64,000 nucleotides of DNA from Watersipora subatra (lineage: Eukaryota; Bryozoa; Gymnolaemata; Cheilostomatida; Watersiporidae): contig NC_088711.1 of assembly GCF_963576615.1 (NCBI RefSeq), positions 23,158,182-23,222,181 of the forward strand, in the 5' to 3' direction. This document shows positions 19,507-61,100 of this stretch, piece by piece. Position 1 is the stretch's first letter, and every line of letters starts with the position of its first letter. A program made the position numbers and the translations under genes. Under the pieces are notes generated by a model. That model was not told where the DNA came from. It worked only from the letters and a program-made list of their open reading frames with translations, and made no database searches.

Positions 19507-19917
19507 TTAGAAAAAATCCTCATTACCGAACTCCTCATCTTCACCTTCCTCAGCTTTTGTCTCTTCTTTCTTTTTCTTTCTAGCCAGAGAATGTAGCAGG
19601 AGTTGGCCAGTTTTTTCAGCCCTGCTCACATCCAGATCAATACAGGTAACATTGAGACTTGGTGTGATATCTGCTTTTATGAACAGTGCTCGAAGTGCAG
19701 ATCTAAAGCACTGCACATCCGGGTTATTGTTATAGCCACCCTTAGATCGTATTGTGGAAAACAGAATCTCAATGTGATCCTGGTTGATCTTAAAGTTTAG
19801 GAAGTAGTTGATGTAAGGGTACTTGCTGAAAAGATATTGGGCAATGCCATGTACAGATTTGGTTGCTGACTCAAAACCAATGACGGAAATGATGATGATT
19901 TTCCTATTATTTTCCAC
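19507..19917 (-). pseudogene. P-element/THAP9-type transposase C-terminal fragment
   Basis: An open frame of about 136 codons contains QDHIEILFSTIRSKGGYNNN, which matches the conserved C-terminal block of P-element and THAP9 transposases (DH-E-F-IR-GG-NNNP). It continues into FRSALRALFIKADITPS and ends in a Lys/Glu-rich tail with a stop at 19507. The N-terminal THAP domain and catalytic core are not found upstream on the minus strand before inverted-repeat sequence begins, so it is a truncated relic. Confidence 0.6.
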
Positions 19918-20267
19918 TAGCAGCTTTCAGCTTGGTGTCTTTAATCGGCATAGATAGCTTATGATATTGTTGAGAACTTCTTGTTTTGAGTTGAAGTTCT
20001 GTCTTGTTATAGGCAATTCAGGATATACCTAGGGTGTTGTGGTCTCTTCTGATGACATTCCACCAAGAATTTGGTCTTATTGTTACGTTTATGACTTAAA
20101 AACTAGCATGCCAAGCGTGCTTCCACTACTAAACTTATTGCTCAATTGAAGGCTTTGATGCTGTAATGCACATCACTACGACGTAACGTCGTGAAAACAA
20201 CAGCCAATTATAGGCCTCACTTTTGCTCCATTGTAATGATAGCTATTCGCCAATCTAGGGTTTACTA

Positions 20268-24988: not shown

Positions 24989-27900
24989 ATGGAGTCTACG
25001 CTGGCTTCTTCACAGCACTTGGGACCGTTTCAATTTATAAAACAATTAGATTCGTCTCCAGAAAACGCTCGAAGGCTTCAAGATATGCTGGAAGTATGGC
25101 TGAGCCCGTATGAAACAAAGTTACTGCAGCTGCAATCGCTTTTGGTGTGGACTCATCCTCTTCGCAGTTTCTTGGCAACAGCATTGGTCGTCATTGTATT
25201 AGGGTAAGTTTAATATAGCTAGCTTAATTTTTGTGGCTATCAGTAATCAGTTATATAGTTATCACTAGAAAAAATCGTTTGTTTTAACCCATTTTCACAT
25301 TAATTAATACTGTAATATTTAGGAAACTTATTAAAACGTATTTAGTAATCTAGTATTTATTAAGATCTAGTTGTGGGCTATGTTAGTATCATAAATATTA
25401 AATCATCATGTGCTATACTGATAGTTTTTTGTTTTTTTATTGCTTGTTTGAAGAACAGAATTAGAAGGTTAGCAGCTATCAGTAAATTCTAACTGATTTC
25501 AGCCATAGTTGTATGGAGTGTTGCAAAATGGTATTACAAGATAAATTTATTCGAATACTGTAATGTTCGATTTCACGTAATCTACGTAAAAGCTACAGAG
25601 CTTACAAGTGGGTGCTCCAGAGTTGGAATTCATGTAGACTGGTTACTTGCTTTAAAAAATGCCGAGCGCATAATTTATTAAAGGGCGGGAAGCATAAAAC
25701 CTATACGTACGCTGTACGAATTATCACACGCATACCAATGCAAGACTGTTACATAAAGCATGTTCTTCCGTCTTTTGTTTATAGACATTTTTCAGAGATA
25801 GTAAACAGCGCGAAGCGCTTTATTTATGTTGACGAACAGTTATGTAATAATTGTCTTTTGTTTATAGACATTTTTCAGAAATAGTAAACAGCGCGAAGCG
25901 CTTTATTTATGTTGACGAACAGTTATGTAATAATTTTCTCCGGAGTCCTTTGTTCATTCGACTGCAGAGCGATTTTCAGCCGCTATGCTGAACCAACTAA
26001 CAATTGACTTCATTGATGGCGTTAACCTGCTTACGTATAAAATTACATAATTTGGTCAGATTTTTTCTTGTTGCAGGCTGTTTACAGCCTTTGTTTCAAC
26101 TCGACCAGGGTAATTATAGTCAAGCAATCCCTATGGTATTGTTTACTACAATACTCCCTAAGTTCTGAGCTAAAGGTGTGATCCCCTTGTTGAGAGTGGC
26201 AGAGTCTTTCTCGAGCCAAAGCCTTCCATGAATGTTCATTTGCAAAAATTTTGAACTAATGTATATTGATTTTTCAGGGCTCTCTGTTCAACTCATGTGA
26301 TTGGCGCAGTGTGTTTCTTTTTGCTCACGATATTTTGGATAGATCTGTGGTGGTACGTGATATGGCCAACTATTCGAGTTCCAATTCCCCGAAATGAGGA
26401 ACAGGAGTAAGTTTATTCAAAGTTACTTGTTGATTATTAATTCTGAGGTCTCTGCATATAAATCGAAAACCTAACACCATAGGTCAGGTTATGCCTAATT
26501 TTAATTTTAGATGGGTGCCAGTGCACATCGATTTTCTCTCTGTAGCAGACATAGCGCACTATTCAGCACGCGCTATCATCATGTTTAGAACCTATGGCGA
26601 AGCTCTTTACAAACTGAGGCTGGAAAGAAGATCAGCTGTGAGTATTCCGAGTACTTTTAGTTTATTTTAAAATTTGTGTTACTAATATGGTCTTCAAATT
26701 ATACAGTATATGCACGTATATATACAACTAGCTGAACCACTCGGCATTGCCCTTGTAATAGAAGAGTATTTGGACAGAAAATTGATTTGTATTTAACATA
26801 TAACAACATTTGCCATTCTAACTTTCAAACTACATATCATGAGGAAAGTTTTTTGTCTTATAAACAATGAGAAGTAGTGAGAGTTTTGCTATTAGCCAAT
26901 TTAATAATGTGAGCGAACAGCTTCGCGTGACGTTATGCTATGACCCGCGTCATACGCAAAGCAGTTAGGTTTTGCTCTGATATAATGACTTATATTGGCA
27001 GGCTAGCAATTCGACTTCCGTAGTCTAGTCGGCAAGGCGTCAGACTGGTGAACGGCTTGGTCCGAGACCGAATCCTCTTCGGTATGGAATATGTATTCCA
27101 AGATTTTAAGATCTATAGCCGGATTTCCGACGACGACAGACTATGAGAAATATATATATTGATATAAGATATATGCATGTACAGTCAAACTCGGATAGCT
27201 CAAACGCATGGTAAACTCAAACAGATTTGTTTGGTTCGTTCCCACGCAATAATAAATTGCTCTAGATACCTCAACATCATTAACTCGAACAGATTTTTGC
27301 CCAACGGCTACCGAGACGGTCGTTATCACTTAAAGCACATAAATTATATAATTCTTTTATTATATATTTCAATACATCAGAGTCTTGGCTTTCGAATGAG
27401 CCTATATTCAATACACAAAGAGTAATAGAACTATGAAAAACAGGGTGTCAAAAGTATGTCCTGCAAAAAAACACTTGGTTCAGGTTCTCAAAATGTGATA
27501 TCACAATTATTATTTAGCCTTAGGTAGTTGATCGCTTTTTCTGCCGGTGAGGCTGCGCTTTTCTGTGACAATCCGTGCTGTTAAACCCAGAGAGCACTAA
27601 TAATAAACTAGGATTCTAGATAATCAACAATGCCAGGGATCTGACCAATACAAACACATGTTCTGGGTTAATTAATTATGCTTCAATAATTGTACTGTCA
27701 TTAATAAAGGTAATGAAATCACATCAATTAAATTGTGACCTGCGGTTGCGTTGGTTGCGTTGGTTGCGTTGCGTGGCCTATATGTCAATCGTGGCCTATA
27801 TGTCAATCGTGGCCTATATGTCAATCACACAATGCTTGAAACTAATTAGTCTCAGTCACTACCCTCAACATCACAATAAAATGAGAGAGCTAGTGCATAA

Positions 27901-32586: not shown

Positions 32587-35500
32587 AGATAGATTTACAT
32601 TATCTTATTACATTTATAAATTTATAACTTTTGAAGTTTATAATGTAAGTTTTTAAAGTTTGTTGTGTTCTCGTTTTTATTTCATCTTGCATTTTTTAAA
32701 CATAATTTGAGTATCGCGTTTGAAGTTTAAACATTATTCATTTTCCTATCACTGTTATTATTACTTAGTTTCCAATCTTTATTAATATTAATTTTTGATT
32801 CAACTATTTTTACCAGAAATTGTTCTAATACAATTTCAACTACAAAATCTACCATATTCTGTCATAATTTTTTATTACTCTGTTAAATTCGTGTATTCTC
32901 AGAAGTTACACATTGTCTAATGCTTCCAAAGAGAAGAACCTTTCCTGCACAAAATCATTTCCTCATGGTATGAAGTTTGAAAGTCACAGTGGTTTGACAA
33001 AGTTTAAAAACCTTTACAGTTGTTTTTATTTTATCTGTTAATTTATTTCAACTACACAACACTTTTCTCATGATATGTAGTTTGAAAGTTAGAATGGCAA
33101 ATGTTGTTATATGTTAAATACAAATTACTTTTCTGTCCAAAGACTTTTATTACCCGGGCAATGTGTGTAGGACAGCTAGTATATATATATATATATACAT
33201 AGTATATACTGTATATAGTATATACTGTATATATATCAGGGTTGTGACGCATTAGAACTGCACTACGTCATTGCAGTGCAGTACACAGTAATTTTGCTGT
33301 ACATTACAACTTTCTAGTGTGTAGTAGACATTTACTGCAACTGTGCTCCCACTGCAATTCATGCATACTGTGAATGCGCATTCTTCAAAACCTAACCAGA
33401 TGTGCCTATACGTCGTTTTCTCTTCCAAGCTCATTGAGAGAGAAAGTGATACTTTTATGAATAACTGTGGGGCTCTCCTTATTCGTTATTCAAATTGAAT
33501 TTGACAGAACTTGCACCAACTTTACGAAAACTTGAAGGAAAAATTTAGTTGTGGGAAGTTTCTTACGTGATACGATGCAAAAACTTCACACAAATTATTT
33601 GTGTTGAGTGGAAATTAAATATAAAAAGGTTCATTCTATGCAAGATACTACTGTATATGCATTCATGTGTATATATATATACAAATATATATTCAATTTT
33701 ACAGATATATTTTGCAAATGGTTATGTATGATGTATCTGAAGCCACATACTGGAACCACTGCGTATATCTAATGACCCTGTGCCATTAGCTTAGTAACTC
33801 TTGGCCTGTAATCTAGCTGTTTGTTGCAGTTTGTTGCGATAATGTATGCCTACTCTGCCTGCCTCCTCGTCATCGGTCACTATTTTTCAGGCCGCGTCCT
33901 TGCCTTTATTTCATGTAAGTACACCTTTTCGATCTTATGCTCTGAGAATGGGCTAGTATCATTGCCTATGCCGCCTGTGCTTTGTGTTATTTTATCTTGT
34001 CAACTTCTTTTTAGGGACCTTCAGTGTTTGTCATTTGGTCAATTTATATCAACAGGCTGTATCCGATAACCCTACTCAAATAGGCCAATAGGTGCTAGTG
34101 TATGAGATCGCTTGCAAACCATTAGTTCTCTTAGGAGAGACTACATTTGTGTTTTTCGTAGTGTTTGCTGCTGTCGTGGTTCCTGCTGCAGTCTACCACA
34201 ACATCCTTCCTACGGCTTATGTCAGGGTCAAACCATATCTTATGGTTCTGTACAACAAGCTAAAGCCAATATTTGAGACAGCAAACAGGAGAATAATAGC
34301 ATTCCATCAGGGTGAGTTGCAAAGGTTTTTAATCATTCACACGTGATTGTCACATTTCAGTTTTCTCGAATGTGTAGATGGAAGTTTTACAAAATATAAA
34401 AGATTAAATTTAACGAGCTAGCAGTGAGAATTGCGATAAAGATTATAATTAACACCTCGATGAATGAGGAAAAAATTTACCCTCTCAGATAAGTATTCTG
34501 ATAGGAATAAGATTTTAAAATGAAAGTTATATGTGTAGAACTTATTTGAAATTATTCAACATTCTATGGTTGAGTCAAAATGGATGGCAGACATTGTCAT
34601 GTGAGTCATCTAATCCGTTCCTATGTAGAGAGGAGCTCCGATGATGATAACTCCGATGTCATCCCGTCAGATTTTCAATTCCTATTGGACAGTGATGAAA
34701 TCAACCCAGCTCCTCAAGGTTGGTTAGATGCATTCTTCCTACTAGCATAGAGAGTTAGTCGGCAATTAGTAGTGCATACTTGCAATGCTTCCTGTTTAAA
34801 CTAGATTATTCGAATGTAGCCATATTATTAATTTATCTAATGTATATTTGAGTAATTTTAAACCAATCGCACCAAAGTTTTTCCTTATTTCTATCAGAAG
34901 ATTATGATTACTGCAGCCACTCTGTTCATCGTAACTCTCACGTTTGTACCATGTCAATTATTCCTTTGTATTCAGAAAAGAAAATAAATCTGAAAGGAAC
35001 GTTATCCCCGGATGTTTCACATATGCCAGATTTTGAGAGGGTGTGTGACGACTCACAAAGGATGTTCATGCTGGATTTGGATGTGATGCCTAGCATGGAT
35101 GTTGTAGATAGATCCAGGTACTACAGTCTGCATGACTCTATTTAGCCTTTTCTCTTCTTGTTTATTATTAGTGTACTTTGTACCTGTAGCATCTGCCCCT
35201 CAAAGTTTGAACATCAGTTTGATAAATGTATAGGACATACAAGCTCATGTGAGTACGCTCTTTGGACATGGAATATAGAGCGGGTTGCCAAAGTAACATC
35301 AACTTTGACTACAAAAACTCAAAATCGACTTTTTTATTAGCATTCACTCACCAGAATCCTTCATAATGAATGAGCATCCTCAAGGCAATGGGGTATATGT
35401 GTATATATATATATACTCTACTGCATATATATATATATATATATATATATACTCTAATGCATATATACAAGTATATATACACCCTGGCTACAGACAGGAC

Positions 35501-38287
35501 TGTTTCGACTATTGAAGCCTCATCAGTGCCGCTCAAGGCAGGCAAAGGACACAAATCCCATTACCAATGAAATTTGACTTCCTGCCATGAAACAACTAAG
35601 TTGCCTCGCAGACTTTAAGAAAGTCAATGTGCTGACACCCGAGTGCTCAAATCACAAAATTGATGAGCTATAGAGATATATATATATTGGTATGTGTATA
35701 TATGTATGCATACATATGTATACATGTATATATATTTAATTAAACATATATATTCATTTCAAGCATTTCTGTTTGAAATGAAAATATTGCCAATAATGCA
35801 ATATATGTATATATAATCTATATATATATGTGATATACATATTACATTATTGGCAATAATTTGATTTTAAACAGCGATGTTTTCCAAATTAGGCCGTGCA
35901 AGACATAAAACAAAAAACCAACGGTGAGTCAATGAAATCAAATAAAACGGTTTGACATAGATATATACGAGTGTTTGAAATACATTTCACTAAGCAAATG
36001 GGTGCTAGGCAGAAGGTTGTTAAAGCAGCTAACGATGACATTTTCAAAATAATTGTTATATGTATGCATTTGTTCCTAATAACCTATAAACCTATTGTTC
36101 CCAAACCTATAATTGACGTGAGATAAACATTTAGCTTATGCAAAGTAAGAAGATGCAGTGGTATAACAGAAGTTTAATAGTGGTATTTATCAAGGACTTG
36201 TCTGGTCATCTTCTTAAATGTCTGTTCTGGCTGTTGGCTACTCGAGGAATATTGCTGGCAGTGAGTTTATGTTAGTAATTGAATTACCACTTTTACGGCT
36301 GCCTCTGTCTTTAACTTGTTGCCCTTCTAGTGTCACAAATATACAAAACTATTTTTTAAAAAAACCGTTATGGTGTTCCAGCTTTTAAATTTCAGGCTGT
36401 TTCACTGAATTATTTATAATGGATTTGTATTGTTTCTGCCGTCTTTCTTCAATTTTGATTGGCTATTGCCTTTTGATATTTTGAAGAAGCATCGTGACAC
36501 GATGTCAAATCTTTTATCACTGGCTTTGATTTTAATGCTGCTGGTGCATCCAATAATAGTTTTTTTATTCTATATTTTTGCCCAAAATGACTTCATACAT
36601 GGAAATCGTGCAGTGGAAATATTGCCACAATTATGTCAGCCGATGAACTTAAAAAGATGTCACTCAAATAATATTGGCAGCTGTGCACCTCATTGTCATT
36701 TCATTCATGGTTTAGTGTCTCTACCTTTTATGAAAAATTCATATTATCACATGATATGAGGCTGGTTCAATTCACGAAAACGGTTGCCTATTTTACTGAG
36801 ACAATCTTATCTGCCCTTCGGGTCTTGGATATCAGCTGTGTTATCATGTGTTGATGGTAAAGTTTTCTAGTAGGCTCGTGTCACTGTCCCATTGCACATG
36901 GCAACTGCTGGGAGTCCTGTCTGGCACTTTTACAAAGTCTAGCAACAAAACACATCTTGTAAGATTGTCTGTGCATTTCTGATGGTAGATTTTAAAAAGG
37001 AATTCTACAAAATACTTAATAGTTTATTTTTGTGTTTTGTAGATTATTTAAGGAAGTGGCCAGATTACGAGAAGAAGATGAAGACACTGACTCTGATGCT
37101 GACAGTTTGATGCTTGATAGCGAGCTCAGTCATGCTATAACACCATCAGCACATATGGGCCAGTCGGCATCTACAGTTCCATCAGCACCTGTACACCCGT
37201 CTACGGTTCCATTTACACCCACGATTCCATCAGCATCTGTGGACCTGTCAGAACGCGTGAATCTACCATCACCAAATGTGCCGCCAGTTCCTTTGGAGCC
37301 ATTAGCTCCCATACCTCCTTATATGCCACCTCGTGCTTCTAGGGCTTCAGCTCAGCCCGCAGGCCAAATAGGATTAACGCTTGATGCATTCACAGGAGCT
37401 GTCTCTCAATTTGCTGCAGGTCTGGCTATTAACGTTATAACTTTTTTCCATGCAATTAACTGGTCCATTATTATCATCCTCACCTGCTGGATCATGAGGG
37501 TTTCGCTATACCAGTTGCTCATACCTAAAACTCAATCTATTGAGACAAGAGTCACAAATATATTCTGTTGTCTGACTACAACTTTGTCATGTTGTACCGT
37601 ATGTTCTGGTTGGGTCACAGTCGCTCACTAGCAGCATCTTACCAAGTATTGATGTCATAGCAATCTCATTGACAATAATCCTTGCATTTTACACTCTCTA
37701 ATAGGTTGAATAGGCTTGCTGTGACATGCTATTGTTCGTCGTTGTTTAGAAACACAGTATGTTCAAGGGTTCTGGCTCATCAATTGATTTCGAGTGTTCA
37801 CCTCCTCACAGACTAGCAACCGTGTATTTAGATATTTTTCATGTGTACCAAGTTGTGTTTCATAATATAAATAGTTCTATTATCTGCCAAACTTAATTAA
37901 TGTCCCTAAACTTTTTTTTAATGAGATGTGTATTTTATAATATAGCTCATCTTCTGTGATTGAGTTGGAGCTTCGAACCTTTATTGTTGTGTTTAAAAAA
38001 AATAATCAAATTAGTAGCATTGTCTAAAGTGAACTTTGTCTTCTCCATTTTTGGTTCTATATGTAACAATCTTTCTTTGAGGTTCGCTTTAGATAGTAAC
38101 TAAGATGGCTTCTCCGTTTAATACTGCAGGAATGTTCAGTTCTATGCAAGCCGATCATGAGCTAAAGCAGGACCCGCCGGACAGGATTGCTGATGCCTCA
38201 ATCGACGATGATTTGGAGGGTTCACTCGCTTTCCAGGACAGTGATGAGTTTGACTATGAGATCATATCTCGAGATGAGCTCCGATAA
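24989..38287 (+). CDS. RETREG: Reticulophagy regulator (FAM134/RETREG family), complete
   Basis: RETREG proteins bend ER membrane and recruit ATG8/LC3 to drive ER-phagy. Exons: 24989-25203, 26278-26406, 26511-26637, 33830-33914, 34162-34311, 34629-34718, 34898-35117, 37043-37419, 38130-38287. Phases agree throughout, giving 516 codons, in the family size range. The reticulon-homology region has two hydrophobic hairpins: residues about 58-100 (FLATALVVIVLGALCSTH ... FFLLTIFWIDLWW) and about 158-195 (SACLLVIGHYFSGRVLAFIS, then VVVPAAVYHN). The C-terminal half is acidic, then Pro/Ser-rich. A LIR-type motif, FDYEIISRDEL, sits next to the C-terminus, matching DDFELL of the family. The exon 5 acceptor was chosen by phase and makes the second hairpin about three residues short. 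It is a co-orthologue of RETREG1/2/3; which one cannot be told. Confidence 0.9.
25771..25935. repeat. 83-bp tandem duplication in RETREG intron 1
   Basis: 25771-25853 and 25854-25935 are nearly identical, differing at about one or two bases. Each contains the inverted motif AGCGC-GAA-GCGCT. High identity suggests a recent duplication. Confidence 0.9.
26729..27180 (+). mobile_element. Composite retroposon with internal tRNA-like promoter
   Basis: It begins ACTAGCTGAACCACTCGGCA, continues TTGATTTGTATTTAACATAT, then GCGTGACGTTATGC blocks. A tRNA-like segment follows at about 27015-27075 (TAGTCTAGTCGGCAAGG as box A, GGTCCGAGACCGAATCC as box B), then AGATCTATAGCC and GACTATGAGAAATATATATA. AT microsatellite flanks both ends. 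Confidence 0.65.
27334..28296. mobile_element. TTAA family 2 element (963 bp)
   Basis: It begins AGCACATAAATTATATAATT and ends with the inverse ATGTAATTTATGTGCT, with TTAA on each side (27330-27333, 28297-28300). About 75 bp at each end, including CAGAGTCTTGGCTTTC, are inverted copies. A second copy is at 42938-45099. The segment at 27776-27832 has a short triple repeat (GTGGCCTATATGTCAATC). Non-coding. Confidence 0.85.
28500..29387. mobile_element. TTAA family 1 element, copy c (888 bp)
   Basis: AGGTTGACTTGC / GCAAGTCAACCT ends, TTAA on both sides (28496-28499, 29388-29391). The flanking host (GAATAAACTTAA ... AAGTAAAATC) matches the uninterrupted sequence at about 20995-21015, so the empty site is known. 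Confidence 0.9.
29763..30260 (+). mobile_element. Composite retroposon, longest copy
   Basis: It begins ACTAGCTGCGCTACCCGG, then TTAAAATCAGCTTATAAGCA and GTTGCCAATGGATAATTTG. A tRNA-like segment (TGGCTAAATTGGTAAGACAT, then GGTCTGAGATCAAAT) lies near 30110-30165, and the tail is AATAGCTATAGCTGGACAGA then ACTTTGAGAAATATATATAG. The tRNA-like part is internal rather than at the 5' end. Confidence 0.65.
30476..30880 (+). mobile_element. TCGGATAACTCG family, 3'-truncated copy
   Basis: From AGTCAAACTCGGATAACTCG through GGACGTTATCGCTTT-like sequence (GTTATCGCTTTAGAATATCA) to AAATCGGCAAAATTGATCTT. It provides the uninterrupted version of the site where the 27334 element inserted elsewhere. The region 30881-31408 after it shows nothing recognisable. 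Confidence 0.6.
31409..32407 (-). mobile_element. CCCACGACC inverted-end family, copy 2
   Basis: CCCACGACCAAA at the left and TTTGGTCGTGGG at the right. The internal blocks (TGGCACTGCAGTGCCAT and ATTAATCTGTCTATTTATGT) match copies 1 and 3 in reverse. Located in RETREG intron 3. Confidence 0.65.
32905..33185 (-). mobile_element. Retroposon head fragment plus AT microsatellite
   Basis: Minus-strand copy of the ACTAGCTG...CCCGGGTAATAAAA head running through AACATATAACAACATTTGCC, ending at a TA tract (33178-33235). A separate (TA)n tract preceded by ACTTTGGGAAATATATATAT lies at about 32538-32583. Confidence 0.55.
35401..35475. repeat. (TA)n microsatellite next to the hammerhead motif
   Basis: Two TA-rich blocks separated by ACTCTACTGCA/ACTCTAATGCA. 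Reading frames here are artefacts. Confidence 0.9.
35480..35680 (-). mobile_element. Small hammerhead-bearing retroelement
   Basis: The ribozyme is followed (in plus coordinates) by about 140 bp of non-repetitive sequence to GATGAGCTATAGAGATATATA, with TA-rich tracts on both sides. No reverse-transcriptase frame is present, so it is a fragment or non-autonomous unit; exact borders are uncertain. Confidence 0.45.
35482..35538 (-). ncRNA. Hammerhead ribozyme motif, type I, short stem III
   Basis: On the minus strand the conserved core is complete: CTGATGA at 35526-35520, GAAA at 35506-35503 and the cleavage triplet GTC at 35495-35493. Stem II is GGC/GTC with a 7-base loop (35519-35507). Stem III is the two-pair AC/GT form. 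Stem I is GCGGCA with TGTAGC (5 of 6 paired) plus an outer CCTT with AGGG, separated by a small internal loop. This architecture is known from Penelope-like elements and small retrozyme-type repeats in animals. It lies in RETREG intron 7 beside a TA microsatellite, antisense to the gene. Activity is inferred from fold only. Confidence 0.75.
35681..37042. other. Rest of RETREG intron 7
   Basis: Contains an AT-rich inverted pair (ATTGCCAATAATGCAATATA near 35790 and its partner near 35850). A 109-codon open frame at 36430-36759 resembles nothing recognised and has no splice or repeat support. Confidence 0.4.
38246..38287 (+). other. RETREG: LC3-interacting region of RETREG
   Basis: The last 13 codons encode EFDYEIISRDELR. 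An aromatic residue two before a hydrophobic (YEII), preceded by Asp/Glu and followed by acidic residues, fits the W/F/Y-x-x-L/I/V motif. It sits at the very C-terminus rather than 30-50 residues inside, as recalled for vertebrate members. Confidence 0.75.
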
Positions 38288-43800: not shown

Positions 43801-46800
43801 GCAGTGATATCTTATAACTTAACGTAAAAATTCGTTTACTTTTTTAGACTTAGCTTGAAGGAGTACATATCATTGTCTGATAAACATGACGAGCCTGTTG
43901 GTCACCTGTGATAATCGAAAAGTGCTGCAGAAATTATTTGCGAAGTATTGGGTCACATGATCAGATTACGACTTGCCGATTAGACCAAGCCGAAACAAAA
44001 CTGTAAAGTAACGAACATCTATCTTTGATACGGGGTCTTCGGTAAAACCCGAAGTGTTTGTCATAAACTAGTGCTACGAGAAGTTTTATATTGAGCCTTT
44101 TATTGGCCTTTCAATTCACATGAGAGCATCACGTGTCAAAACCATAACCAAATGTAATGACAACGTCAGAGAAATAAACTGATTCCGATCTACGGCGGTT
44201 TCGTGATAGCTGCGATCAACTGTTCGTTTTTTAGCTTTTGAGAGCTTGTAATCACATTTCCACATATTTTGCACCCACAACACAGCAGAGTAAGACATGG
44301 TGAATCTTTTGATACCAAATAACTGTAATGTGAATTTTGTTGCAAATCAACCTTGAACATCTAGGTTAATAGTTATTTGTTTAATTTTGTTGTAGAAGTC
44401 AATTGAATTAAATCAATAGTTGGGGTTGACTCACTGCACTCGAGGATTGTTCAGAATAGAGAAGCCTACTGTAAATAACTTAATTTGCTTATAAACTAGT
44501 ATCATACACAAAGTTATTAATTTAACTGTCCAATACACCTGTTTTATATTTTCTATATACTGTAATTTATTCGAATATAATATAAATATTATTTTTATAT
44601 TTTTTTTGATATTTAATTACTAATTAGTTATTAATCATTTCTGAATGGGACAAACCCTGCCATCGTATAAAACGATGTGATAATAATTACTATAAATGTT
44701 TAAAATGAACGAATGGATGAAAAAGCAAACTTTAACCAGCACCCGAAATCTATCAACCCAGAACATGTTTGTATTGGTCGGGCGTTAGCGCGATCACCGG
44801 GCATTGATCTAGAATGCTAGTTTATTATTAGCGCTCTCTGGGTTTAAGAGCACCGACTGTGACAGAAAAGCGCAGCATCAATGGCAGCGAAAGGGATCAA
44901 CAACCTAGGGCTAAATGATAATTATGACATCACATTGTGGGAACCACAACCATGTGTTTTTTTTTATTGCAGGACATACTTTTGACACCCTGTTTTTTAT
45001 AGTTCTATTATTCTTTGTGTATTGCATATAGGCTCATTCCGAAAGCCAAGACTGATGTACTGAAATATATGATAAAAGCACTTATGTAATTGATGTGCTT
45101 TAAGAGCTTGTGATCACATTCCCACATATTTTGCGCCTACAACACGGCAGAGTAAGACATAGTGAATCTTTTGATACCACATAACTGTAATGTGAATTTT
45201 GTAGCAAGCCAACCTTTAACAATTGGTCGCGAACAAAGAAAAATACATTTTCAGATGAAAAATTTTCATGTTTGCTCGAAATTACCTAGATTATTTTGAA
45301 TTGAAGTAATGATGGAGTAAGAGCCGTTTAGTTTGACAGAGTCCCGCATCAAAAACGCTTGCTTTTAACCTGGCTCTTAAAATCTGAATTTTTTGCATTT
45401 ACTTTTTTACAAAAAAATGATTTGTAGTTTTTTGTAAGGAATTTTGTTCCCTTTCAAATGGTGTATGATAAAACAATAAATTTCAGAGTGACTGCCAATG
45501 GGAGTAATTTTCATTGGTTAGTGTTGCAGCCTCTCAATATAACTTATTAGTTATATTATTATTATACTTATGATTAACTTATTAAAATTAGTTTACCTGT
45601 ATTCATAAGCTCCACCAGCAACAGCCTTTTTACAAGCTCGGCACTGCCAAATACCAACACAAGTCCTTTTCATGGCTTCCTGCAATACATCAAACAAGAG
45701 TAAAACCTGTAGAGGATATCGAATGAAACAGACATGGCGAATAGGATGTAAGAGAAGACTTTAGCTGGCTTAACGCTCAAATTTTTCAAACAAATGTGCA
45801 GTGTTACATTTTTTTTTGAAATTAAGGATTATTCCCTTCTTACATCGATGGCAGCATTACCTCAAACACTGTATGCAAATATCACAATGTATATGAGCAT
45901 GAAATCATGAGTGATTTGGCCAAACGGTTTTGTAGTAAACCAGGCAAGTTTGACATTTTGGAAATTCCATAAATTTTATTCACTGTCCATGGGCTGCCAT
46001 GAACAGAAATACCATTGCACTTCAGTTTTACTAATCAAACCCTTCAAACTGAAAGCTCTGTAAAGAATATTTCGTATGATAAACCAAATACATTAAACAA
46101 TACTTATGCACCGATTGGCTATCTAGAGCGACGGGGTTACCTCGACCAGTAGAGTATTAATAAAAGATATTAACGTGTTTCAATTTATACTAGATAATAT
46201 ATCCTATTCTTAGAAAACAATTCAACGAGCCTGGAAACAAGATTAAAAACTATTGGAAGTCGACAAAAATCAATGTCATGATGCTATATAAAACTACTGC
46301 GGAGTAAAATTGAGACAAATTCATAATAAGTCGCCCTTGACAGTGGTAGTAGTTGGCTGCGTCATAATATTATATGAACCAATCATAATAGATGTTATAA
46401 TATCACACACACTAATTCCACAGACAATTAAACCTAAAACAAATACGAATCTAGTGATACCAGCTTTTACCTTCAACCTCCATACCTGAGGAAATTACCT
46501 ACTTGACACTAGAATGAAAGTTAATCCAGCCAGCAGAAACAAATAATACTTAATAAATAATAGTATCAAATACAATAAAGTCTAGGATAAAAGTCAGCAT
46601 AAATAGTATCAAATATATTTTTTTATACAATAGATGCTCCTATAACGTTAATAATCCGTTCCAAGAACGTTCAAGGTATCGGAAATTTGCGTTATAAGAA
46701 ACTTACCATTACAACTAATATCTAATAAACATAAAAAAATGATTTTGCAACTGCAACAATATCAAACAGCCACACCATGTCTTCAAATTACCACGACAGG

Positions 46801-47861: not shown

Positions 47862-50800
47862 ATGTCTTATGGATATGGTGTAAGTTCTGGCGTATATTCA
47901 CAATTGCTTAAATATCTTGCTGATTGGCGGCTCTATTCACCAAGCTACTTGTTAGAGTATTCACACCTGAAATTCAGCCAATTTCATTTGCCGTTGGATT
48001 AATTTTCACTAATAGTTATTAATTGATTTATGTAAATTTTTTAGGCTCCAGGTGGCTATGGTGGGCCTCCATCACAACCTAGCTATGGACAGCCACCACA
48101 AGGGGGTTACCCGGGAGGGTACCAAGGAGCCCCTCAATCTGGCGGCTATCCACCTCCACAGCCCGGATATGGGGGGTACCCGAATGTCGACCCACAGATT
48201 ATGGCTTGGTTTCAGGCCGTGGATGCTGACAGATCTGGCCAGATTTCAGCACATGAATTAAGATCAGCGCTCACTAATTCTAACTACTCGCATTTTAATG
48301 AAGAAGCATGTCGCCTTATGATAGGTAGGAATATGATGTTTTAGATTACTAGTTTTGTTGATGACCTTTTTCATTTGGTCTATTCTGCCGCTGTTGAATG
48401 CCACATTTCTGTGGCATGTTTTATGTTTATGTTTTTAATGGTTTTTGTTAGCTAAGCTCTAATGCTTATTTATCCAAAGGCTTACTAATGTTGCTGATTT
48501 TTAGTAATTGCAAGATTGAAATTTAAGAACATTTCAGAAATATTCACACATATTCACTGAGTCATCATTTGTGAAGTGCATAACTTTATTTTTTTATTAT
48601 AATCTTTGACTGTTTTTAGGGATGTTTGATAAAGATGGGAGTGGCACCATAAATTTAAATGAATTTCAGCAGTTATGGACCTATATGAATCAATGGAAAG
48701 GAACATTTGAGCGCATTGATGCCAACCGATCTGGTTCTATTGAGAGTCACGAGTTATGTGCAGGTAATCATATAACTTACTCCGCTATCACAATATAACC
48801 TGAACCTGTGAGCAGTGGTAATCTACACCTGCATTTTATTAACATGCATGATTTATGAAAGAATGAGCCTATATCTGGCTTATCAGGTTCATCAGGTGTT
48901 AAGAAAGTGATCACGTGTGTTAAGCTTGCTTGTCTCGCAAACTCGCGAATGTCTTGCTTTTTAATGTTTTCATGATATTGTGTAGATGGGTTGGGTAACG
49001 CTTTGGCCCATTCAGTTTTTACATATGTACTGAGTACAGTACATAATCATACAGTTGCCAACGCCTAATCATTCATATTATGTAACAGCAATTTGCTTGG
49101 AAGTAATATGTTGTTGGTCAACTGACTGCGATGTACGAGAAAAGGCGTAAAAATTATACAACTTTGGAGCTCGCAGATACTATTAAAAGCCGGTAGTGAA
49201 AAACCAGAATTTAAAAAAGCATTGGCAGATGTATTATCCCACGACCAAACACGAGCAAAGCAATTGTTTGGAGATTTATGATAAAGGCATATGTGCACGC
49301 AACCCCCGAAAAATTATCTGTTAACGCCACGATCAATTCCTTGTACCGAAATCTCATCAACAAATTCAACCACTTTTGTGTAGAGTCGTTTAAGTATAAT
49401 AATGATACAAAACACATATAAACCTACTTAAATATGTTACCAAGTCTTTGAAAGGTTACCGCAATATCTTAAAACTTACCCATCTGGACTTCGTTATCAC
49501 AGATAGAACTGTACCACTAACAGTAATTACCTTTATTTACAAATTACAAGAAACATGGACTGTTTTGTTACTACATGCACGGTATGTCAGTATGTGAATA
49601 TGTATATATTTTTTTCCATAAATGCAAACAAATAAATACAATAATATTCATGTTTTCTTTGCATTATGTTTGTATTTGCATAATAAAATGAGCTACTATC
49701 TATGCAACACAAAAGATCTGAATCGGATTATTTTTCAATTAGGATCGGTATATCGGATCGGTATCTGAATCGGCTGGTGAATTTAGAATCGGGGCATCTC
49801 TACCGTATACAATTAAATGGAAAATCGTTCAACACGCAAGGCCATACGACCCAGCCACCAAGCGTTGTAACCTGTGCATATCAGAAAAGTACATCATCCT
49901 CACAAAACCAGAAATGAGCTCACTCAACAAGCGTAACGAGCTAGCTTCCACATGCCGACATTCTACTAAATACACACTACGAAATGCAATTACATAGCTA
50001 TCAGTCGTTATAGTAATTACACCTCTCTTACATATATAACTCAGTTGGACCAAAACAATTTTATCTGATGATTGTCTGCGTAACAGACGTGAAACTAACA
50101 GTAATGAAGTTGTTTTTTATCTAAGGTTTTACATGAATAAATTTTATATTTAAGCTCTGACCACTCATTGAGCACTATCTGGCAACTTTAACACACTACA
50201 TTGGAATATATATATATATATATGTATATTACACAGCAGCTTGCCATTTTACTTCTAATATCGCATTTCTCCTATTGCAGGGAGAGATATAAACATATAA
50301 TCTTTTCCTTTCATTATTGCTGTTTGTTGTACATAATAACACCCAGTACATTACAGCTACCATTGCAGCTCTCCTATTGCACTGCAGTGCCATTTGACTG
50401 CTAATATTGCATTTTTCAACCAGCAGTACCTTTTCTTTTTCCATTATCACTTTGTTTGTGGGCTGTATGACAAGGGAATTTCTAGTGGTACAAATCCCAT
50501 TTAGTTTTATTATTAATAACGACTTAACATGCGTTGGTCGTCAGTATTAAATTGTAAGCAAGCTCTGAAGTTTCTATGAGTACTTGAATCCCTCTAAATT
50601 TTCCTTTGTTTACTCAATATTTACCAGAATATGAATGAATGGTAATTCTTTCTTCCCATACGCTTCAATTAAAAATACAGCAACTGATCAAAGTACCAAT
50701 CCGATTTAACATCCTCTACATATCAGCTAATTCAATCCTGATCTTTGGTGTTTTATGGTTTATTGCTTCTTGTATTACAAAGATTATGAATAAAGTGTGC

Positions 50801-52171: not shown

Positions 52172-55100
52172 TTAAAAACCTCCGAGTGGGTCGCCAAAAA
52201 GGTCATCATCATCCAAGTCTACTTTCTTGGTCTTGCCCTTAGTACTTCCTAAATCGGCAAACAAGTCATCTGCGAAAGAAAAGTGGATTGAGATAAGCAT
52301 ACATCAAATACCTCAACTTCACTCATTTTCTCAGTGCAGTACCGCTAAAATCCTATTGAGTTCAGTAACAAATAATGGAATATTTGCCTAAATCTTGTAT
52401 GGCAAGTGAAGCTCCAGTCGCAAGTTATTCAGCTGGGATATCCAGATAACGTGTGGTCATATAAATGCTTGTAGTTGACCCAGCACAACACGTAGATTGC
52501 TATAACAGCACTGACCTAAATATGGCATATTACAGTGCTTTCTGAACATCAACAGACATGAGAACCAATATTTTCTCAGCTGATCACACAATCATATTGC
52601 AAATGGCCATAGCATCAATGTCAAAGAGGGCTAACAACAAAGTCTCAATGCTGATGTCGGACCTGAGAACCCTGATGAAAACTTTAAGAATAAAGCAAAG
52701 AAGTTGTGTACACCTACCCATGTCATCATCGAGAGTCACCTTCTTAGTTGGTAGACTTTTTTTTCCTGCGGGTGCACGAACCTTCTTTTCCTTGCTCTTA
52801 ATATTTATATCAGCAAAAATGTCATCTCCGCCAAACAAATCCTCATCCTGCGTACAAAACATTGAAAAGCTTCAAAATTCGAAATGAGTGTCGAGTCTTG
52901 ACTGAGCTAAAACAAACACTAAAACTGGCTAATGCCAAACCAAATGCTGAGTTAGCAAGCTATTGACCAATCAGGCACCCGGTAAGATGTAGCAGCCAGA
53001 TGATGTCAGCGACGCTAACCTTAGTGAATGCTTTCTGCCTTTTGGGTTTCACAGGCTTTGATGCAAACAAGTCATCATCATCAAGGTCCTGCAAGTAAAA
53101 TCCACTAATGTACTCATATATTGAATAAACTGAGGCAAGATACAGTGACATATATAGACAAGTATAACATACTAGCGTTCATACGTAGAGTACAGCATAT
53201 ATTCTTTTATTGAACATACTAACACCAGGTATAGTCGTTAAAGTGTTGCAGGTTGAACCATAACACCAGGTATAGTTACTGCAGTGTTACAGGTTGAACC
53301 ATAATACCAGTGAATATAGTCATTACAGCGTTGCAGGTTGAACCATAATAACACCAGGTATAGTCACTGCAGTGTTGCAGGTTGAACCATAAAAACACCA
53401 GGTATAGTTACTGCAGTGTTACAGCTTGAACCATAATACCAGCGGATATAGTCATTACAGTGTTGCAGGTTGAACCATAATAAAACCAGGTATAGTCACT
53501 GCAGTGTTACAGGTTGAACCATATTAGCACCAGATATAGTCACTGCAGTGTTGCAGTTTGATCCATAATAACACCAGGTATAGTCATTACAAAGTTACAG
53601 GTTAAACCATAATACGCCAGGTATAATCACTGCAGTGTTGCAGGTTGAGCCATAATAACATCAGGTATAATCACTGCAGTGTTGCAGGTTGAACCATAAT
53701 AACACCAGGTAGAGTTACTGCAGTGTTACAGGTTAAACCCTAATACACCAGGTATAATCATTACAAAGTTACAGGTTAAACCGTAATACACCAGGTATAA
53801 TCCCTGCAGTGTTACAGGTTGAACCATAATACACCAGGTATGGTCATTGCAAAGTTACAGGTTAAACCGTAATACACCAGGTATAGTTACTGCAGTGTTG
53901 CAGGTTGAACCATAATAACACCAGGTAGAGTTACTGCAGTGTTACAGGTTAAACCCTAATACACCAGGTATAATCATTACAAAGTTACAGGTTAAACCGT
54001 AATACACCAGGTATAATCCCTGCAGTGTTACAGGTTGAACCATAATACACCAGGTATGGTCATTGCAAAGTTACAGGTTAAACCGTAATACACCAGGTAT
54101 AGTTACTGCAGTGTTGCAGGTTGAACCATAATAACACCAGGTATAGTCGCTGCAGTGTTACAGGTTGAGCCATAATACACCAGCTATAGTCACTGTAGTG
54201 TTGCAGGTTGAACCTTAATACACCAGGTATAGTCACTGCAGCGTTGCAGGTTGAATAGCAAATAGATTCTTACCAAAACAGGCTTTTTCTTCGCAGGTTT
54301 AGTGCTGGTAAACAAATCCTCATCATCAAATATATCCCCCACAGTTTTCTTAGAAGAAGATTGTTTAGCAGGTTTTACAGCAAATATGTCATCATCCGAA
54401 TCTCCGAGTGCAAAAGGATCTGCAGTCTTGTGCTCTATCGGTTCAGGTGATGAATAACCGTCTAACGGAGGAGGCTCCTCCAAGACCGGTGAAGGTGATT
54501 TATTAGGTTCAATCTTAATGCCATTGTTAGTAATTTCCTGGGTCTTCACCTCTCCATTCGAAATTGCATTATCTTTCTTAGCAATCAGGGCGCCGGGTTT
54601 GGTAAACAAATCATCGTCATCACTATCCAAGTTAGTTAGTGTTTTAACGTCGCTAGGAGGCAACAGTCGGTCAGACGATTTCAAGCTAGAATCTATAAAA
54701 TTGGGAGTTACCGATGCACTTGAGGGGTTATTGTCTCCATCGGGTTTTGGGTCATGGAGTGGTGGAACAGGTTTGGAGCTAAACAAGTCATCTGTGTCAC
54801 TGTCATCAAAGGGATCAACAGAAGGGGTTTTAGCTGCCTGACTATGACTGGTTTGAAGGCTACTAGAAACTGGAGGAATGTGAGTATCGATTGAATCTGT
54901 TGGTTCTGGAATGGTTGTGGGCTCAGCAGGTGCAAGAGCTTTTTCTCCTTTCTTACTGTATCTACTAGGAGGTTTCCTCTTCTGCTGAACTTTGGCTCGA
55001 GACTGCAAAAAATAGTTTTCTATGTAACACACCTGTAATCACTGATCTACTGATCTAAGCACAAAAGCTGCAAATGAGAGGTGAATGCTAAAGAAGAAGT

Positions 55101-58100: not shown

Positions 58101-61100
58101 TTATCCTGGTTGGGTTTGAAGAAATAGCAGAGCTGAGAAGCTATGGGTAAACCTAAGAGCTCAGAGGTTGATGACAATCACCTGTACAGGTGACACGGGA
58201 ATAAACTCTCTCAGCTAATTGCTTATCACAGAATATCAGAGAGAAAGTTTATGACTAATATGCGTAACTTACCTTCATTTGGTGACTTCTTTTTTAGCAA
58301 AGCAGAAGGGTCCATGCCACCAAACATGGAGACTGCCCCGGCAGGCCTCTTAGGCTGAACTGGTGCCGGAGGCTATGTGAAAGGAAACTTAGAATAAGCT
58401 GTGTACATGTACTTCCTAAGTAGCAAGGATAGTGACGCAGGAAGTAGGATAGTGATAGCTTACGTTAAAACAAATTATGAAAATTGTGAAACAGAAAAAA
58501 TGGGAATATAAAAAATGGAGTAAATTGAAGATAAAAACACACTGAAGATGGCAATAACTAACAGCCTCTAGACAGCCAATTTGCGTAGTTGTATCATACA
58601 CTAACCTCATCAAGGATTTCATCTTTGGCTTTGCTTTTGGGTGCAACATCCACTATATGTTCTACAATAAAAGCATACATTTTGTTACAACAAGCAGAAG
58701 GGAGACGACTAATTGTCAGAGTATCCTTCAAAACTTGATGACTGCAACACATCAATACGCTAGTTTAAAAAAGTATCATGAGAATAGAAGAATAAGTGGC
58801 AACAATCTTTAAAAAACATCTAATAAAAATTAAAGGAACAAAATTTGACAGCTGCCCTAACTTTTGCGATTTGAGAAAACTTAGCAAGACTTCATCTGAA
58901 TGAATCTGCTGCACTAAAACATAAGCTATGAAATACCAATGGATCGTTGATATACATACACATATAAAGCCACTGCACAAAATACAAACATTTCAACAAG
59001 CTGCACCCACACTGCGATATATTTGAAGACCTGGTATGTCTCAGTGAACATGTCATGACATACAGGGCTAAGGTATATCTTAGTGAATATGAGATACAGA
59101 ACTAAGGTATATCTTAGTGAATATGAGATACAGAACTAAGCTATATTGTAGTGAACATGACATACAGAGCAAGCTTACCATCAGTGTCGCTGTTATCAGA
59201 TGTGTTATCAAACAGGCTGGATGCCTGGTTAGTCCCAGATTTAGTGACCTCACTCACTGTTTCTTTTGGTAGAAGATCTAAAAACAATCAATACATAAGG
59301 AATGATATACAGCCCCTGGTGACCCTGTCAGTTAACAAAGAAGCGCACCAACTTCAGAGATTAAGCGTAGAGACGATTCAACATTATACTTTTATAAGAT
59401 ATTCTACTTGAGGATTTAGCCATTTTTTGAAGAAACTTCTAAACAAAATTGGAGAGACACAGTTTACATATGACTTAACAATGAGCGAATAGTGAGAACA
59501 GAATACAAGAGATTCGGTGGGCTCTTTCAAAAGAGCCAAAAACACAAGTGACTGGCCTAGAACTGATATAAAAGATTATTCTGATAATAGCACACTGGAT
59601 CCAACAAACGGCTAAGCTTCAAAGATGAACGCGTTTGAAAAAATTCATGGCACAACTTACCATCAACAGATTTGTTTTCTAGAGGATTTGACTTATTAGT
59701 AGACGGTTTAATATCCCTGCTGGTTGGAGGGGACACGGTTTTCTTTCCAGAAAATAGATCATCATCATCATCATCTGAATCATCAAACATACTAGCTGCT
59801 GTCTTAGATGGTGTTTGAGTAGCAGGCTTACTGACTGTTGTCTTGCTGGATGTTACAGGCTTGCTGACAGGAAGTGGGGAGTCCTCTTCATCGGATTCGC
59901 TAAATAATGAAGAGTTGGCAGGAGGAGGTATGATTGGAGGTTTGTTAACCGCTTCAGGTTTACTAGTTGCATCTGGTTTGCTTATATGAGAAGTGTTAGG
60001 AGCAGGCTTAGCGGCAAACATATCATCATCATTGTCGGAGTCTTCAAATAAGCCTTGGCTAGACGCTGGTTTGGCTGAGTCAAGTTTGCTGGATGCTGAC
60101 TGAGAGACCCCTGTAGAACCTTGAGCTGTCTTAGTAATAGGAGGCAATATCCCGACAGCATTATCATCTGAGTCCGAGTCACTGAACAAACCTTTAGAAA
60201 CAGTAGACTTTTTAGTTATGACAGGTTTACCGGAGGATTGCTGTTTTGTGGTAGCAACTGCAGGTTTGCTAGAGAACAGGTCACCATCATCATCGCTGTC
60301 ACTGAATAAGCCTTTACCGACCTTCTGGGTCGTGGTTACTGTCTTGCTTGGCTCTTTCTTGGCTGGAACCTCCCTAACTAACTCATTTTTAGCTGGTTCT
60401 TTTTTAGCTGGCTCCTTTTTAACTGGCTCCTTTTTAACTGGCTTTTTGGTCACTGGAGATGGTGCCCTTTCTGTATTAGCATCATCATCTCCAAACAGAG
60501 AGTCAGACTTGGAGACCTGAAACACATTTTGCCAAGTGGTGAAGGCGGATGCCTAAAATGAAGAGAATCTTTCCCTATATGCATAAACATAGTCAAATGG
60601 TGTCCAAAAAGGTTAACTTAATCCATGACAGAACCGAACTGTTTTAGAAACTCAGACCCAAATAAAGCTGTTATAAAACTTTGTACAAAAAGGTGAGAAT
60701 GTTAGAACTGCAGAATACAAAATATGCTTCATGCTCAATCACCTACTTCTGTTTATCCAGCTGCAACTATCCCCGAGAATGGAACAGCGTAGATAAGGTG
60801 AAAGTCGGATGAGGTGAAAGTCGGATGAGGTGAGAGTCGGATGAGGTGAGAGTCGGATGAGGTGAGAGTCGGATGAGGTGAGAGTCGAATGAAATGAGAG
60901 TCGGATGAGGTGAGAGTCGGATGAGGTGAAAGTCGGATGAGGTGAGAGTCGGATGAGGTGAGAGTCGGATGAGGTGAGAGTCGGATGAGGTGAGAGTCGG
61001 ATGAGGTGAGAGTCGGATGAGGTGAGAGTCGGATGAGGTGAGAGTCGGATGAGGTGAGAGTCGGATGAGGTGAGAGTCGGATGAGGTGAGAGTCGGATGA

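Follow-up and report, generated by a model that had tools for sequence, protein, structure and literature searches.

The DNA analysed here, 64,000 nt of contig NC_088711.1 of the bryozoan Watersipora subatra (assembly GCF_963576615.1, positions 23,158,182 to 23,222,181 of the forward strand, called the window below), carries a RETREG gene on its plus strand and a type I hammerhead ribozyme on its minus strand. The ribozyme belongs to a single copy of a repeat with a 259-bp unit, called the retrozyme below, and (TA)-rich tracts flank that copy on both sides. Further along, at 49806–50206 on the plus strand, lies a 5'-truncated remnant of a Penelope-like element (PLE), in which the end of an open reading frame (ORF) is followed by a second hammerhead, a short module also present in the retrozyme, and a (TA)n tract. 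All features are listed in Table 1. An earlier note on this DNA had described a hammerhead in an intron of the RETREG gene, antisense to it and next to a TA microsatellite. The host gene was identified by Pfam (RHD_RETREG1-3), and both the antisense orientation and the adjacent TA tracts were found as described; the placement inside an intron comes from the predicted exons of the initial sequence reading. The interpretation given there, a ribozyme of retrozyme or PLE type marking a small family, is supported, and a 259-bp retrozyme family and hammerhead-bearing PLE-like elements are both present in the genome.

The hammerhead ribozyme in the window

The core motifs CUGAUGA and GAAA, the triplet GUC and three stems are all present on the minus strand, confirming that the feature is a type I hammerhead, and a covariance model built without the window recognizes it with high significance (Table 1). 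Hammerhead cleavage falls after NUH, and by this rule the cut is predicted directly after GUC. The fold had been called complete in the earlier note, which holds for the core and the three stems and fails in stem I, where a G35530.A35489 mismatch replaces the consensus U-A pair. The internal loop noticed in stem I does exist, and is partly of mutational origin; stem III, which had been given two pairs, has 3–4. In stem II one G-U stands where G-C is the commonest pair of the family. The window ribozyme is damaged and may have lost the capacity to cleave.

Table 1. Positions of the retrozyme copy, its ribozyme, the PLE remnant and the host gene in the window
Feature	Position	Strand	Basis
Type I hammerhead ribozyme	35475..35543	-	covariance model R1 built without the window: 70.5 bits, E 1.8e-15
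Catalytic core CUGAUGA	35520..35526	-	motif CTGATGA read 35526-35520
Catalytic core GAAA	35503..35506	-	read 35506-35503
Stem I GCGGCA/UGUAGC	35487..35532	-	arms 35532-35527 and 35492-35487
Stem II GGCU/AGUC, loop UCAAU	35507..35519	-	arms 35519-35516 / 35510-35507, 4 bp
Stem III ACAG/CUGU, 2-nt loop, 3–4 pairs	35494..35503	-	arms 35503-35500 / 35497-35494
Predicted cleavage site, between C35493 and U35492 (GUC)	35492..35493	-	hammerhead rule
Single retrozyme copy, 5'-truncated, about unit 81-259 plus 3' end	35480..35675	-	91% identity over 179 nt to L051 tandem unit
GCTC...GAGCAC module, the second of the two in the retrozyme, retained in the window copy	35643..35668	-	pattern match
(TA)-rich flank, 3' side of the retrozyme	35394..35479		sequence, repeat scan, flank count
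(TA)-rich flank, 5' side of the retrozyme	35676..35762		sequence, flank count
PLE remnant: C-terminal (GIY-YIG-like) end of the ORF, with stop codon	49806..49997	+	tblastn PLE1 E 5.8e-17, PLE2 E 1.0e-18
PLE remnant: hammerhead with 13, 6 and 3 pairs in stems I, II and III; core starting at 50065, cleavage predicted after 50103	50052..50116	+	descriptor
PLE remnant: GCTC...GAGCAC module	50154..50175	+	pattern match
PLE remnant: (TA)8 at its 3' end	50207..50222		repeat scan
Host RETREG gene stretch (reticulon-homology domain)	26246..26410	+	Pfam PF24456, E 2.9e-8

The view that such a combination is unlikely by chance stands for the full structure and not for its core: the pattern CTGANGA...GAAA by itself is not significant, with 5 occurrences in the window against a mean of 3.7 in shuffles, and a full descriptor requiring at least 3, 4 and 2 pairs in stems I, II and III, limits that were chosen with the motif already known, gives one match in the window and one in 300 first-order Markov windows. 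A stricter later descriptor, with at least 4 pairs in stem I and a tolerated mismatch at the base of stem II that was added after the site near 50 kb had been seen, fails to pick up the window copy. Two alignments were used, A1 with 54 of the 64 ribozyme instances, ten redundant ones being excluded, and A3 with 27 of the 63 non-window instances, damaged copies included. In a scan of the window with a covariance model from 27 other copies nothing but this site matches with an E value of 10 or lower, and the retrozyme model has no match up to E 1 in 30 control loci with reverse transcriptases of long interspersed nuclear elements (LINEs), which were cut out after an RVT_1 search (150 of 11106 candidates scored) and classed by eye from their ORFs. 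A covariation test within the family was uninformative, since 101 of 500 shuffles reach the score, and the folding energy of the window site is ordinary (z -0.24).

At gathering score Rfam finds nothing in the window nor in seven fetched loci. A permissive scan of 401 bases returned 38 matches, mostly on TA tracts and none of them a hammerhead, and on a 68-nt stretch of the window the only hammerhead was RF03152 with 11.7 bits and E 6.9. This weak score is attributed to damage in the window copy, and an intact family copy in locus L051 likewise stays under the Rfam cut-offs, with 21.7 bits and E 0.0011 to RF02275, Hammerhead_HH9, in an 81-nt search. The family aligns with HH9 in the internal loop of stem I, the 5-nt loop of stem II and the short stem III, and differs from it in that even the intact copy is below the gathering score of 52 bits. 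The two loops may provide the tertiary contacts between helices I and II of a retrozyme hammerhead. The covariance-model search proposed in the earlier note was accordingly positive with a model built from the family and below gathering score with those of Rfam. A chance match would fit with the Rfam result at gathering score, the ordinary folding energy and the failure of the stricter descriptor; it is already refuted by the covariance-model E value and by the existence of a repeat family that keeps the core, and can practically be discarded.

The 259-bp family and its ends in (TA)n

The whole assembly (784 Mb, 239 contigs) was searched; it represents one genome, and all copy counts are lower bounds. 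L- and C-numbers are labels for fetched loci and contigs. A 91-nt query around the site gave 40 matches with 85–100% identity (the best 40 of 108 candidates scored), and the 39 besides the window's own were covered by 37 fetched stretches. The repeat unit is 259 bp, found singly or in tandem, with one type I hammerhead per unit, a G+C content of 46.7% and a longest stop-free stretch of 66 codons on both strands. Two or more units, mostly spaced 259 bp, occur in 17 of the 37 fetched loci, and contig C5 has 11 consecutive units with a spacing of exactly 259 bp. A query from the unit body lacking the ribozyme gave 104 matches (the best 40 of 1283 candidates scored), most of them 98–99% identical to the query, indicating that the family is young in this part at least. 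The hammerhead core is intact in 18 of 20 loci selected by the body query, which are a fair test of core retention because they were chosen without the ribozyme, two of them (L108 and L109) sharing a flank. Divergence is 2.6% in the ribozyme and 6.0% in the body (47 alignments, L051 and short alignments excluded), a comparison that is biased since the loci came from the ribozyme query. The dispersed and tandem copies bear out the small retroelement family anticipated in the earlier note, and the search for tandem copies suggested there has found them.

In most respects the family corresponds to the metazoan non-LTR (long terminal repeat) retrozymes as these are described in the accessible part of Cervera and de la Pena 2020 (PMC7229834): a type I hammerhead, a unit within the published range of 150–450 bp, dimers to long tandem arrays as well as dispersed copies, a G+C content below 50% and no long ORF. 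It departs from those reported there, where the word microsatellite does not occur, by integration into (TA)n, by a preferred 3' end just beyond the ribozyme and by a putative module for the start of reverse transcription that is shared with PLEs. The preferred 3' end of the copies reads ...GUC^UGUAGCAUGAG, then (TA)n, and sits 11 nt beyond the predicted cleavage site. Of 37 copies (36 loci and the window; the query included part of the flank), 32 have a (TA) run of at least 12 no more than 75 nt from the 3' end, as do 16 of the 20 loci from the body query, which were chosen without ribozyme or flank. At the same distance from the 5' end such a run is present in 22 of 36. The control values are 33 of 2557 75-mers of the window (1.3%) and 34 of 4394 of the LINE loci (0.8%). 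The flank count omits both ends of L051 and the 5' end of L046, where the stretches end within an array.

The 5' ends are variable and often lie in (TA)n too. Target site duplications, which retrozymes may show, would be masked by flanks of this kind. By BLAST borders they are concentrated at unit 71-76 (7/37) and at unit 3-14 (8/37; 36 loci and the window, L051 excluded), with values of 0.005 and 0.06 respectively after correction for 259 windows; L042 and L043, both in the second concentration, share flanks, as do L036 and L037. One fixed end, one ragged end and tandem multimers are together consistent with reverse transcription that would begin at one set position on an RNA circle. The arrays, which reach 11 units, might also suggest satellite DNA that carries a ribozyme and spreads by unequal crossing-over and gene conversion, with no retrotransposition. 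This is very unlikely in view of single copies and dimers scattered over many contigs with mostly different flanks, and of the preferred 3' end opposed to ragged 5' ends.

The window copy, from its sequence, is best read as old, weak or dead, and is without any sign of host function. A ribozyme located downstream of the RETREG domain stretch on the same contig, in a family that resembles Rfam HH9, could be imagined to have been domesticated in an intron and to act on the mRNA of RETREG, comparable to the conserved hammerheads of amniote introns. This is highly improbable: the ribozyme is antisense to RETREG, so that the RETREG pre-mRNA does not include it, and the copy is truncated and damaged.

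Penelope-like elements and the shared module

The earlier note had proposed looking for a Penelope-like reverse transcriptase, and a reverse-transcriptase query of PLE type gave at least 150 matches with a best E of 1.1e-7 (150 scored of 892 candidates), after a first such query, of another type, had given no match (3 candidates). The elements were grouped by eye under the working labels PLE1 to PLE7. Locus L131 holds two full, near-identical units of 2400 bp and one 5'-truncated unit in an array bounded by (TA)n, and the unit encodes a 729-aa ORF and a hammerhead. The PLE-like ORFs have no match in Pfam or NCBIfam, nothing was found against one LINE reverse transcriptase, and a PHROGs search gave one weak family of unknown function. 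In a fold search with the C-terminal domain I-TevI ranks first, but weakly and tied, and the YIG...R...H of the C-terminus aligns with the GIY-YIG domain of L060 with E 0.013, but a probability of 3.3%; a Pfam search of the genome for GIY-YIG gave one domain only. The PLE2 ORF matches none of the PDB sequences and the C-terminal domain profile gives only matches at E 6.5 and above. The assignment of the ~2.4-kb elements to the PLEs, which combine a telomerase-like reverse transcriptase and a GIY-YIG endonuclease in one ORF, is tentative and draws on the match to the PLE-type query, motifs read by eye and weak fold evidence. Several of the matches form inverted pairs within 1–3 kb.

With one descriptor hammerheads were found in the window remnant, in PLE1, 2, 3, 5, 6 and 7, and in 0 of the 30 LINE loci; PLE4 was missed and is matched by a descriptor without the stem III rule. 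They lie near the junction of the ORF and the pseudo-LTR (pLTR), and their stem sequences differ among the families. The hammerhead of the window remnant is better preserved than that of the retrozyme at 35475–35543. The retrozyme covariance model matches the PLE hammerheads weakly, and that of PLE2 reaches 22.0 bits and E 0.0016 with RF00163 (gathering score 34). The retrozyme and PLE2 hammerheads thus both score about 22 bits, with RF02275 and RF00163 respectively, well under gathering, and scans at that level overlook such families. Of 14 PLE1 loci checked, 13 end in (TA)n, 7 of them at one site and 6 at another; the plus-strand copy in L117 has no such end. Near a PLE copy in L117, at 350–382 and 678–709, are two more types of hammerhead, of which one has a palindromic stem III; there may thus be further ribozyme-bearing families.

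The position of the hammerhead near the ORF/pLTR junction and the AT-rich targets are as in the anole Poseidon element (PMC11167929), and tandem copies and 5' truncation are shared with Poseidon and with Penelope of Adineta vaga (PMC3846280), in so far as these are described in the accessible parts of both papers. The PLEs here differ by their ends in (TA)n tracts and by a GCTC...GAGCAC module that is not mentioned there. Published PLE hammerheads are characterized as minimal, without helix III or loop contacts, in the part available of PMC7761336, whereas those found here have a short stem III. The retrozyme differs from all of these elements by its 259-bp unit and by having no ORF.

The module reads GCTC-N-GAGC(A/G)C, with TCT or TTT coming next in most instances, and is located downstream of the hammerhead in PLE1–6 with one to three per locus. 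The retrozyme unit contains two; among 20000 shuffles of the unit that preserve dinucleotides, 7 reach or exceed this number. The pattern was drawn up post hoc, after comparison of the retrozyme with PLE1–3. Of 12 PLE tails fetched after it had been noticed, 5 contain the module, with three further families represented among them; 6 of the 7 module-less tails pass into (TA)n and one, L139, has neither. PLE7 has (TA)n ends, but the module is absent from the stretches seen. The window has four hits, one in the retrozyme, one in the PLE remnant and two at one palindromic spot (44833–44851). The sequence of the module is invariant, and an RNA structure for it is putative. At all five sites that are informative, meaning that the genomic end and the continuing sequence are both visible (retrozyme, the two PLE1 sites, PLE2 and PLE4), the genomic end falls at most 9 nt before GCTC, and finer placement is impossible because both sides read TA. 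The start-site sequences of the retrozyme and of the long PLE1 site share ATATGCTCC and then TTGAGCACTCT, in the same order. The retrozyme has its layout of hammerhead, module and (TA)n ends in common with PLE-like families of this genome.

Two observations concern the second module of the retrozyme. The 5' ends at unit 71-76 cluster immediately before it, as if reverse transcription stopped or the second end was joined there. In L108 and L109 (contig C6) retrozyme arrays have a 3' end that halts at the second module, followed in both by the same A-rich flank that is not (TA); a duplication of the segment or a composite element may lie behind this.

PLE pieces occur in 5 of the 37 retrozyme stretches, a count made without a control set, and in L119 (contig C1, 363–544) a diverged retrozyme copy (81%) directly adjoins a PLE copy, and (TA) tracts lie to either side. 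Such joint occurrence is expected if (TA)n targets are common to both. LINE-type reverse transcriptases are abundant in the genome, and a LINE or another non-LTR retrotransposon might mobilize the retrozyme, the (TA)n flanks then being a fragile or permissive target. This is unlikely, as the 30 LINE loci, classed by eye, contain no module on either strand (111,816 bp) and no hammerhead, and are not enriched in (TA)n by the count given above, which was taken on 75-mers across the loci. The ORF ends read in these loci show no GIY-YIG-like end.

A putative mode of mobilization

The hammerhead, the (TA)n ends and the module that are common to the retrozyme and the PLEs support mobilization by PLE enzymes, and the feature in the window is best explained as the ribozyme of a decayed non-LTR retrozyme of the animal type, most likely moved by the genome's own PLEs. 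Read-through transcripts of the units would cleave themselves and a host ligase would circularize the monomers. A PLE enzyme might then bind the GCUC...GAGCAC module and cut a (TA)n tract, and the cut TA end could pair with the UAUAU directly before the module and prime reverse transcription. One or more rounds of copying of the circle should give single or tandem insertions with one end fixed and the other ragged.

As far as the accessible part of PMC7229834 goes, circular RNA has been reported for animal retrozymes, and PLEs were called "a strong candidate" helper from co-occurrence and shared habits. The protein of the anole PLE begins reverse transcription internally in a stem-loop and prefers and cuts AT-rich targets, according to the part of PMC11167929 available, and a 3' "tail" set by internal initiation would be a parallel to Poseidon. 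The anole start site is stated there not to be homologous to the cut DNA, whereas here a UA-rich RNA would meet a TA-rich DNA.

The order of the parts, hammerhead, UA-rich start, module and second module, is common to both elements, and together with the short stretches that are alike near the long PLE1 site (ATATGCTCC ... TTGAGCACTCT) it would also suit a 259-bp unit that arose from a PLE by internal deletion, having lost the ORF and still being recognized by the parent enzyme. We consider this possible and rather doubtful: the ribozyme stems of the unit and the PLEs differ, and elsewhere blastn of the unit against 20 PLE loci gives matches of 12–20 nt only, barring the real retrozyme copy in L119.

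Short interspersed nuclear elements (SINEs) are non-coding partners of LINEs and have 3'-end recognition signals in common with the autonomous helper. By analogy, we are inclined to regard animal retrozymes as SINEs of PLEs, in which a circular ribozyme RNA would bear the helper's start module for reverse transcription and a (TA)n-cutting PLE enzyme would copy the circle from there. They would differ from the SINE-LINE pairs in that the helper is PLE-like and the retrozyme RNA bears a ribozyme and is probably circular. If true, this would account jointly for the arrangement in tandem, for the one 3' end that is preferred and for insertion at (TA)n, and the module would be a recognition code matching each retrozyme to its helper. 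Next to the ribozyme and the target that are also shared, the module makes the question of what moves animal retrozymes testable with an RNA of 259 nt and a protein that are both defined. Mobilization by PLEs would explain why retrozymes form tandem arrays and supply a signature to search for retrozyme-helper pairs, and would offer a natural system that produces RNA circles and reverse-transcribes them. No report of such a shared module was found among top-ranked results in titles and abstract openings of the open-licence literature.

Scans with viral-contig patterns gave no match for two patterns, and two short patterns matched 6 and 8 stretches. Elsewhere in the window a fragment of a TNP-like RNase H C-terminal domain (PF21789, E 7.3e-13), a piece of a transposase, is located at 19507–19923 on the minus strand, and there are two large minisatellites, one at 53222–54255 with a 43-bp unit repeated ~24 times and the other at 60796–61777 with a 16-bp unit repeated ~62 times.
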